Shown piece by piece: positions 55,063 through 57,811 of a stretch of DNA of 64,000 nucleotides. Within the stretch, counting starts at the first letter, position 1. Each line of letters starts with the position of its first letter. The stretch comes from Bacillota bacterium (lineage in GTDB: Bacteria > Bacillota > SHA-98 > Ch115), in NCBI GenBank assembly GCA_013178415.1, contig JABLXA010000004.1:186001-250000 (forward strand), given 5' to 3'. Below the pieces are notes generated by a model. It was not told where the DNA came from and did not search any database. It was given only the letters and a program-made list of their open reading frames with translations. The translations under genes were made by a program, and so were the position numbers.

Positions 55063-56304
55063 GTGGTCGTCTTAGAAGCATCTTCTAGGCAAAGTCAAGC
55101 TAATCGTATAATAATCCAGAAATTTGGCGGTACATCCGTTGCCACGGCAGAAGCGCGGAAACTAGTTGCGTCTAAAGTGTTAGAAGCGCAGAAGCAGGGA
55201 TTTCAGCCCGTAGTTGTGGTGTCCGCCATGGGAAGGCGTCCGGACCCTTATGCGACGGATACGTTGCTTGACATGGTGAATAGCACGGGAATCGAGGTCG
55301 CGCCGAGGGAGCGGGACCTTCTCATATCTTGTGGTGAGATCATCTCAGCGGTCATACTCGTGCAGGCATTGAAAGCCGTTGGCATTCAGGCCCAGGCCTT
55401 TACCGGATCACAGTCAGGCATAATCACGGATGATAGGTTTGGAGAAGCCCGAATCATCGGGATAGGGCCAGAAAGAATCCTTGCTTCCATAAGGGACGGC
55501 CATGTTCCCGTTGTCGCTGGTTTCCAGGGATGCAGCATAGCAGGAGATATTACCACCTTGGGACGGGGTGGAAGCGATACTACTGCTTCAGCTCTTGGAG
55601 TCGCTCTCAAGGCTGAGCTTGTGGAGATTTATACGGATGTTGATGGGGTGATGAGCGCAGATCCTCGTGTATCAGGTGGGTCGCAGATACTTGAGAGCAT
55701 GACCTATGAAGAGATATTGGAGCTTGCCAATAATGGCGCCAAGGTTGTGCATCCCCGGGCCGTGGAGATAGTCCGTCAAGCCGGGATTCCCATGAAGGTT
55801 AAGAACACCTTCAGCGATGCTCCCGGGACTCTTATCACCTCTGGCAAGACAAGCAGGATAATAACTGGGGTTACCCATTTAGCTGGACTTTCAAGGATCG
55901 AGGTTGATCTCACTGGCCATCCTGATCAGCATCAGGCCCGGGTGTTAGTATTCAAGGCCATCAGTGAAGAGGGAATCAACATCGATTTCGTCAACATGAC
56001 CCCTCAGAGTGTCTTATTCACCATCAAGAGCGATCTGCAGGAGAAGGCCCAATGTGCCCTCACGAAACAAGGATTTGCGGCAAGTGTTGTGCCCCATTGC
56101 GCCAAGGTGTCGGTTGTGGGTGCAGGAATGCAGCATGTGCCAGGCATCATGGCAAGAGTTGTGGATGCGCTTTACCGGGAAGATATAAGTATCATGCAGA
56201 CCGTAGACTCTGAGATCACCATCTCCTGCTTGATAGCGGAGAAGGATGCGGAACGCGCGGTCAGGGCGCTGTTCCAGGAGTTTGGCCTTTCGCGCGTGGT
56301 GTAG
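55063..56304 (+). CDS. lysC: Aspartate kinase
   Basis: 413 residues. IIQKFGGTSVA kinase loop, GRGGSDTTASALGVALKA, YTDVDGVMSADPR, then two ACT domains (FKAISEEGINIDFVN and GIMARVVDALYREDISIMQTVDSE). First enzyme for lysine, methionine and threonine. The GTG start has no ribosome-binding site; a strong GGAGGGG lies 45 bases upstream before an ATG (55018) that is in frame but closed by stops at 55030 and 55057. No lysine riboswitch is recognisable in the 147-base gap from argH. Confidence 0.93.
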   Translation: MVVLEASSRQSQANRIIIQKFGGTSVATAEARKLVASKVLEAQKQGFQPVVVVSAMGRRPDPYATDTLLDMVNSTGIEVAPRERDLLISCGEIISAVILVQALKAVGIQAQAFTGSQSGIITDDRFGEARIIGIGPERILASIRDGHVPVVAGFQGCSIAGDITTLGRGGSDTTASALGVALKAELVEIYTDVDGVMSADPRVSGGSQILESMTYEEILELANNGAKVVHPRAVEIVRQAGIPMKVKNTFSDAPGTLITSGKTSRIITGVTHLAGLSRIEVDLTGHPDQHQARVLVFKAISEEGINIDFVNMTPQSVLFTIKSDLQEKAQCALTKQGFAASVVPHCAKVSVVGAGMQHVPGIMARVVDALYREDISIMQTVDSEITISCLIAEKDAERAVRALFQEFGLSRVV

Positions 56305-56662
56305 GGCGGCATAATAGGCGCTATTCTTGGCAAACGCAGCACTGTCGGGGAATGGGTGCTCCTCGCCATCGGACGCGGCGTGACCAAGCGATAGTGGTAT
56401 CGTCCCATCGGACGCGACCTTGCTGCAGGTCGCTCTGTGATCCGAGGCCCTCGGGCAATAAGGCCTCGGATCAAAGCCGATGGTCCGATACCACCTACGC
56501 TTGCGTGGCATCTCTCGGATCAATGCCGCCGGGAAAGGGACAGGCGGCTCCTCCTTGAATAGGTCAACCTTGGATCGGAGCGATCCTGGAAGATCGGCAC
56601 CGGAATAGAGAGACGTCCTTTTTGGCGATGATAAAGATAGTAATAGTCTTGGGGGGCTTCTA
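56305..56662. other. Gene-free, strongly structured region
   Basis: 358 bases after lysC without a credible gene. It holds the three-way-junction element (listed separately), a 12-base direct repeat CCATCGGACGCG (56366-56377 and 56405-56416), hairpin GCCGCC/GGCGGC (56525-56530, 56543-56548) and hairpin GGATCG/CGATCC (56572-56577, 56581-56586). The antisense open frame across it also covers the end of lysC and is a chance frame. Confidence 0.7.
56394..56494. ncRNA. Predicted three-way-junction RNA-like element
   Basis: An outer 18-base stem (56394-56411 with 56477-56494; two mismatches) encloses hairpin 1 (GCGACCT 56414-56420, AGGTCGC 56427-56433, loop of 6) and hairpin 2 (GATCCGAGGCC 56439-56449, GGCCTCGGATC 56462-56472, loop of 12). 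All three helices are long and two are perfect. Structure is read by eye; no known RNA family was recognised. Strand and expression unknown. A MITE-like remnant is an alternative. Confidence 0.45.
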
Positions 56663-56866
56663 ATGACCAAAGGAGACAGGAGGCTACGCACTCTCGGGCC
56701 CGCGCGCGACGTTGATAATGCGAGTGAGGCTATAGCTGAGGAAATGAGCAAGCCCCGGGGCACGCCCCGCGGACGTGAGGTGAGATCTCAGAAGAGTCAG
56801 CTGAAGAGCGGTCATTCCCATGGGACAAATAAGGCGATAAAGGTGCCAATCCAGGATAAGAGGTAG
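56663..56866 (+). CDS. Possible small hydrophilic protein, 67 residues
   Basis: ATG 56663 with GGGGGG a few bases upstream. The product is highly charged (Lys, Arg, Ser, Gly, Glu), has no hydrophobic core and matches nothing I recognise. In a spore former a small spore-type protein could be imagined, but no SASP motif is visible. It may be a chance frame. Confidence 0.35.
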   Translation: MTKGDRRLRTLGPARDVDNASEAIAEEMSKPRGTPRGREVRSQKSQLKSGHSHGTNKAIKVPIQDKR

Positions 56867-57229: not shown

Positions 57230-57601
57230 GCTCCTCTTTGTTTTGGCCCAGAATGGTGAGCCATTCATCGTAACAATTCCGTAGCTCTTGAATTCATGCT
57301 ACTGACAGCCAGAGATCATATGGAAAAATTTTGTTATTCCTGTATAGATCTATTGAAATAGCCACAATATTTGCTACTAGCTGCTATAGGTCGATATAGC
57401 CTTGATGAGCGGCCACGAATGCCTGTCGAATTCCGATTTCTGAGGGATATCCTGGCAATAATTATTATACCATAGTTTCGTAAGCCTATCTATGATATTG
57501 ACCGCAATGCTCTGGCTCTGGCGCTCTGGCGCCTGGTGTTGCAAAATACGGCATAGTGAGTTATCCTAGATGTAACCGCCGGAAAACTGAATAGCACAAG
57601 G
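57230..57601. other. AT-rich intergenic region
   Basis: 372 bases between the UPF0175 gene and the TPP riboswitch; no coding frame of merit. A possible promoter for thiC is TTGCAA (57539-57544) and TATCCT (57562-57567), spacer 17, about 35 bases before the riboswitch. Confidence 0.45.
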
Positions 57602-57786
57602 ATCACTGGGGGAGCTTCTACCGCGAGGCTGAGAATGCAGGGGCAACCTGCTCACCCCTTGAACCTGATTTGCGCCGGGTGATGCGCCGCAAGTGCCCTG
57701 CGAGAAATCCCGCAAGGGACGCGGAGGGCGGCAGGTGAGGCGACGCAGCATCCGGTATCTGGGTAATACCAGCGTAGGGAAGTGAT
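57602..57786 (+). promoter_or_regulatory. TPP (THI-element) riboswitch
   Basis: P1 ATCACT (57602-57607) pairs with AGTGAT (57781-57786). Conserved TPP parts: GGGGAGC near 57608, GCTGAGA (about 57628), CACCCCTTGAACCTGAT and GGTAATACCAGCGTAGGGA. The arm between CCTGAT and GGTAATACC is about 100 bases, far longer than usual. Followed at 57812-57843 by hairpin GAAACCGCG/CGCGGTTTC and ATTTT, a possible intrinsic terminator, before the thiC start. Confidence 0.93.
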
Positions 57787-57811
57787 TTCGTTGGAATGGA
57801 AAGAGAAATGC

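Follow-up and report, generated by a model that had tools for sequence, protein, structure and literature searches.

The window analysed here, a 64,000-nt stretch of a 3.57-Mb genome (G000), carries lysC with its stop at position 56304, and the next short open reading frame starts at 56663, leaving the gene-free gap of 358 nt that an initial annotation of this DNA had pointed out. Within the gap, an outer helix at 56394-56411/56477-56494, built of 9 bp, a 2x2 mismatch and 7 bp (18 positions, two of them mismatched), encloses two hairpins that meet it in a three-way junction (Table 1). This agrees with the earlier description in all but one detail: hairpin 1 has the 7 bp assigned to it, and hairpin 2, spanning 56438-56473, has 12 bp rather than 11 and is joined through a G.A mismatch to a further helix of 2 bp. 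The suspicion that such a fold is unlikely to arise by chance was borne out, as the minimum free energy of the 101-nt span on the + strand is -60.4 kcal/mol, compared with a mean of -32.8 for dinucleotide shuffles (27.7 kcal/mol more stable; z = -8.33), and the - strand folds more strongly still (-68.8 kcal/mol, z = -10.72); none of 200 shuffles reached the native energy on either strand. We found no T-run 3' of a GC-rich hairpin that would indicate an intrinsic terminator (the sequence past 56494 reads CTACGCTTGCG), and Rfam covariance models gave no match at gathering and chance-level matches alone at relaxed E-values, consistent with the initial view that the element is neither a simple terminator nor a member of a known RNA family. 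Elsewhere in the window, a TPP riboswitch lies upstream of thiC at 57598-57790 (29.4 bits, against a gathering cut-off of 54.3; relaxed E-value 0.00045), with an apparent long insertion before its final conserved segment, GGTATCTGGGTAATACCAGCGTAGGGAAGTG.

Table 1. Features of the element downstream of lysC, in window coordinates.
Feature	Position	Strand	Evidence
lysC, upstream neighbour (context)	55063..56304	+	gene call
Whole stretch common to at least 2 other genome copies	56334..56533	+	copy comparison
Left-arm unit of outer decayed copy enclosing the core, GGGTGCTCCTCGCCATCGGACGC	56354..56376	+	direct repeat; left-arm units elsewhere in the genome
Outer-helix left arm, 27 nt	56385..56411	+	inverted repeat
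Inner element core: outer helix and two hairpins forming a three-way junction	56394..56494	+	fold, covariation, covariance-model copies, junction comparison
Junction strand AC, unpaired, conserved	56412..56413	+	identical in 5 of 6 stem classes folded
Hairpin 1, 7 bp	56414..56433	+	fold and covariation
2-bp helix, G.A mismatch and hairpin 2 (12 bp), loop with TA	56435..56476	+	fold, covariation, junction comparison
Outer-helix right arm, 27 nt	56477..56503	+	inverted repeat
Right-arm unit of outer copy; includes the initially annotated 12-base direct repeat	56514..56542	+	direct repeat

The composite is larger than the span first annotated, which covers just its inner core. At their full length the outer arms (81% complementary) extend beyond it on both sides, and repeat-derived sequence occupies approximately 56334-56533 of the window. 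The 12-base direct repeat noticed earlier is real and extends to 15 nt (CTCGGATCAAWGCCG, spacing 49), and a second direct repeat, CCATCGGACGCG, occurs at a spacing of 39. Nested copies at other places in the genome show left-arm units repeated upstream with a pitch of about 38 nt and right-arm units repeated downstream with one of about 49 nt, and the window holds one such outer left/right pair. Because the spacings of its two direct repeats match the pitches of the right and left arms, respectively, the annotated direct repeat is a remnant of an outer copy, now decayed, inside which the copy in the window is nested.

A search for further copies in the same genome, proposed as a check in the initial annotation, found them in numbers. 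A DNA search matched about 25 places in G000, and a covariance model built from 14 copies recovered 19 full-length cores (E-values 4.7e-24 to 4.5e-7). The copies are short, non-coding and interspersed, as in a miniature inverted-repeat transposable element (MITE), and the stretches common between them measure 76-327 nt, mostly 120-295. Strong hairpins directly 3' of lysC might suggest a cis-acting element confined to this locus, serving lysC or the next gene as leader, terminator or attenuator. The copies, however, follow unrelated genes, among them atpA and those for EF-P, GAPDH, an OMP-decarboxylase-family protein, a TldD-family protein and a flavodoxin-domain protein; the helix is not followed by a T-run; and no element was found downstream of the lysC orthologues in G001 (same family as G000), G002 (DUMQ01, Bacillota bacterium AS04akNAM_80; same order, other family) or G003 (same genus as G002). 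A regulator unique to lysC is ruled out by the 19 copies, and this explanation as a whole is exceedingly improbable.

Two other observations were made among the repeats of G000. One copy, L035:1005-1252, is a head-to-head chimera that joins the left halves of two stem classes into an inverted repeat and still forms a long hairpin. A different repeat of about 344 bp (L030:1609-1952, L035:1422-1765, L042:1192-1535) consists of units resembling GGTGGCGAAAATCTNGCCA arranged about a centre similar to GGCTATGATTATCCATAA, and in the atpA-atpG gap of L042 it occurs together with the three-way-junction element.

The paired positions of the fold vary in a concerted manner. Among the 14 copies from G000, 18 of 40 pairs change on both sides (55 cells in all), a level reached in none of 500 shuffles, and sliding the pairing partners gave at most 5 such cells; across stem classes, including those of G002, both-sided changes occur in 15/28 pairs. 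Around these changing stems the junction itself is shared by five of the six stem classes folded, in the order closing G-C, unpaired AC, hairpin 1, T, 2-bp helix, mismatch, hairpin 2, with the 2-bp helix present as CT:AG, CA:TG or CC:GG. The sixth class (L049) has AGC instead of GAC and an alternative minimum-energy fold. The stems of the class-4 core of G002 are unrelated to the others, and covariance model R2 gives it no score; it is probably kin to the element, judging from the letters of its junction and loops alone. Class 4 was left out of alignment A4, as MAFFT misaligned it when all classes were aligned together.

The ends of the element are sharpest in G002. Of its eight cores, seven lie within 232-bp elements or contig-end parts thereof, mostly 91-98% identical (one is more diverged), and these elements have sharp ends with terminal inverted repeats (TIRs), bounded by C-TA-AGTTAGTGCGCAAAAAT and its inverse. 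The 15-mer of this TIR occurs 197 times in G002 at up to 2 mismatches, as compared with once for a reversed control pattern. Its first base varies far more than the others, as expected if the target is C-TA..TA-G and the TIR is AGTTAGTGCGCA. Class-4 elements at independent sites in G002 are likewise flanked by TA, with C-TA..TA-G in 3/4. TA flanks, mostly within C-TA..TA-G, are the signature of IS630/Tc1-mariner elements. In G000 the TIRs are decayed. The repeat CTAAGTTAGTGCGCA occurs there at control level (4 vs 4), which indicates that the element ends of G000 differ, and the class-2 end carries TA in 7/11 cases chosen by eye from a script list (TG or CA in the remainder). The TA pair flanking the window copy is ambiguous, as the TA on the left may have arisen by a point change in GATGG, the consensus of the family.

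Insertion of elements into one another was observed in both genomes. In L036, L037 and L040 a class-2 core lies inside hairpin 2 of a class-1 core, and in G002 a class-4 element lies at CTAG inside hairpin 1 of a class-5 core, so that the nested junctions read GCGGC-TA-[..]-TA-GTCGAGC as compared with the uninterrupted GCGGCTAGTCGAGC. Other rearranged forms also occur in G002. The junction core is found in either orientation within the same outer shell (L068, L090 and L101 vs L062 and L064), as if the palindrome centre inverts, and many TIR ends are solitary (L143, L150 and others), the element being truncated at various positions, as though long hairpins were trimmed by deletion.

Two of the sites occupied by an element in G002 have orthologous sites in G003 that do not carry it, where, at about 20% divergence, the exact target duplication cannot be read. 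An IS630 transposase gene (NF033545), split into two open reading frames, lies in G003 between C-TA-AGTTAGTGTCC and C-TA-AGTTAATGCACAAAAG, with the same TIR as the G002 element. No IS630 gene was found in G002, perhaps because it was lost in assembly, and the sole one found in G000 (L171) has no convincing TIRs or end repeats matching the element. We found no syntenic gap in G001-G003 corresponding to the element site of the window.

The distribution of the family is patchy, with many copies in G000, many in G002 and one or two partial copies in G003. None was found in G001 or in 13 other genomes of the class, and a sample of 300 genomes from the phylum gave matches in G000 and G002 only. Searches of viral contigs (exact pattern) and of phages and plasmids (blastn) returned no match. 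One further genome gave a pattern match (L154, JAUIJJ01); its sequence does not adopt the fold of the element, and we attribute it to chance. Within the genomes searched, the family is restricted to the bacterial order of the window's genome.

Two further repeats were encountered in G002 and G003. A separate MITE of 109 bp with the TIR GAGACTGTTGA (L099 and L112-L130 in G002; L113 and L116 in G003) has 6-bp target duplications, e.g., CATATT, CTGTAA and TCGAAC, and often sits inside IS630-type elements at GCGCAA; its G003 copies are 69-81% identical, and matches in G000 about 70%. A short repeat of G003, beginning GACCCCCATGCCATGATGCGGCG, has about 20 matches (e.g., C54:117617, C8:17637 and C17:22435) and starts exactly at the flank of a 69-bp G002 element in L138.

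Taken together, these observations indicate that the window element is very probably a copy of a non-autonomous MITE family of the IS630/Tc1-mariner type, with TIRs, insertion at TA/CTAG, mobilization in trans by IS630, mutual nesting and a conserved three-way junction. The miniature transposon, one of the two readings offered initially, is supported by the 19 full cores, the TIR-bearing 232-bp relative in G002, the TA/CTAG signatures, the two G003 sites free of the element and the IS630 with the same TIR in that genus. In this reading, copies end in inverted repeats and insert at TA, preferably within CTAG, leaving a TA on either side; an IS630 transposase most plausibly moves them in trans; insertion often takes place at TA sites within the hairpins of other copies, producing nested composites; and each element folds by itself into the conserved junction. 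An IS630 transposase probably acted in trans, and we infer that an IS630-type mechanism also made the older copies of G000 and that the junction is maintained by selection. The family is old and decayed in G000 and was more recently active in G002.

The other initial reading, an unrecognised structured RNA, fits the very strong compensatory change and the lack of an Rfam match, yet correction of palindromes at the DNA level could give the same covariation. When the sequences compared are copies of a repeat, covariation this strong may reflect a role of the fold as RNA, a role as single-stranded DNA in which the hairpin is recognised, or palindrome correction. The junction could be a functional RNA made from host transcripts (e.g., an element in the 3' UTR that a protein or ligand binds and that acts in stability or processing), for which the MITE serves as the spreading vehicle. 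In addition to the compensatory changes, within G000 and across stem classes, that shuffling did not reproduce, this would account for the conservation of the unpaired AC and T and of the G.A mismatch even though the stems differ between classes. Of the 18 copies for which both neighbours were scored, every one follows the 3' end of a gene on one side or both, and none is flanked by a divergent gene pair; among 13 copies between same-direction genes, a count that leaves out the uninformative convergent sites and two copies with a single scored neighbour, 10 are sense and 3 antisense. The bias towards the sense orientation is nevertheless weak (binomial p about 0.09), the numbers of G.U pairs (8, one constant pair excluded) and A.C pairs (5) do not clearly favour the + strand, and the - strand folds better, so that we regard a functional RNA as rather unlikely.

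It is possible, though doubtful, that the fold has no function and that the element is a long palindrome in which template switching or correction of replication hairpins keeps the arms complementary, the compensatory changes being mutational. The near-palindromic nature of the elements and the lack of strand asymmetry between G.U and A.C agree with this, as do two signs of hairpin-mediated rearrangement, the cores in both orientations inside one shell (L068 vs L064) and the head-to-head chimera in L035. Such correction would not, however, preserve the same unpaired letters at the junction (AC, T, G.A) in copies with altered stems, nor would it maintain hairpins 1 and 2 as distinct arms, and the conserved unpaired letters speak against it as the whole answer. 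A more specific proposal, unlikely as it stands, is that the junction motif (closing G-C, AC, hairpin, T, 2 bp with one covarying, G.A, hairpin) is an RNA that selection keeps as the cargo of IS630-type MITEs whose end repeats differ.

Several families of bacterial repeats resemble the one described here. REP/BIME palindromes are intergenic, lie mostly 3' of genes, form hairpins and are multicopy, with REP units tied to RAYT transposases. The element shares the first four properties and differs in its IS630-type TIRs and TA target sites, the REP units being much shorter; its size and TA ends argue against membership in the REP/RAYT group. RUP of Streptococcus pneumoniae, an AT-rich MITE of 107 bp with TA termini that is related to IS630-Spn1, is likewise small, non-coding and multicopy, has TIRs like those of a resident IS630 that pair when folded, and inserts into other elements; no conserved three-way junction is reported for it in the parts of these papers considered here, whereas our elements are GC-rich around a covarying junction (PMC2229807, PMC3049150). 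Pneumococcal BOX elements are also modular interspersed repeats of variable size, with outer modules that pair around an inner one and a predicted RNA fold, but they repeat the inner boxB between boxA and boxC, while here whole arms nest concentrically (left about 38 nt and right about 49 nt apart); mutual insertion is known for the pneumococcal repeats (PMC3049150). Correia/NEMIS elements of Neisseria are short MITEs as well and also end in TA; long stem-loops form in their transcripts, for which RNase III processing was proposed; the host is a different one, and the relevant part of the source does not describe a three-way junction (PMC2229807). In its way of working the present family resembles RUP and other TA-flanked MITEs, from which concentric nesting and the conserved covarying junction set it apart. 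TA-flanked MITEs are a known kind, but we did not find this family described in the limited literature searched, and both the family and its conserved fold appear undescribed.

Reading the locus as nested MITEs accounts for the element and for the additional hairpins and direct repeats clustered with it, and provides a well-resolved case of mobile elements nesting concentrically in each other's hairpins. It also raises the question of why, in a transposon that carries no gene, one three-way junction persists through the turnover of the stem sequences. If the fold is a functional RNA, covariation screens for new RNAs would overlap MITE annotation more than assumed; if it is upheld by palindrome correction, strong covariation in an alignment of repeat copies would not by itself prove that an RNA is functional. 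Should the junction be a selected cargo, transposition would spread a structured regulatory RNA behind many genes.
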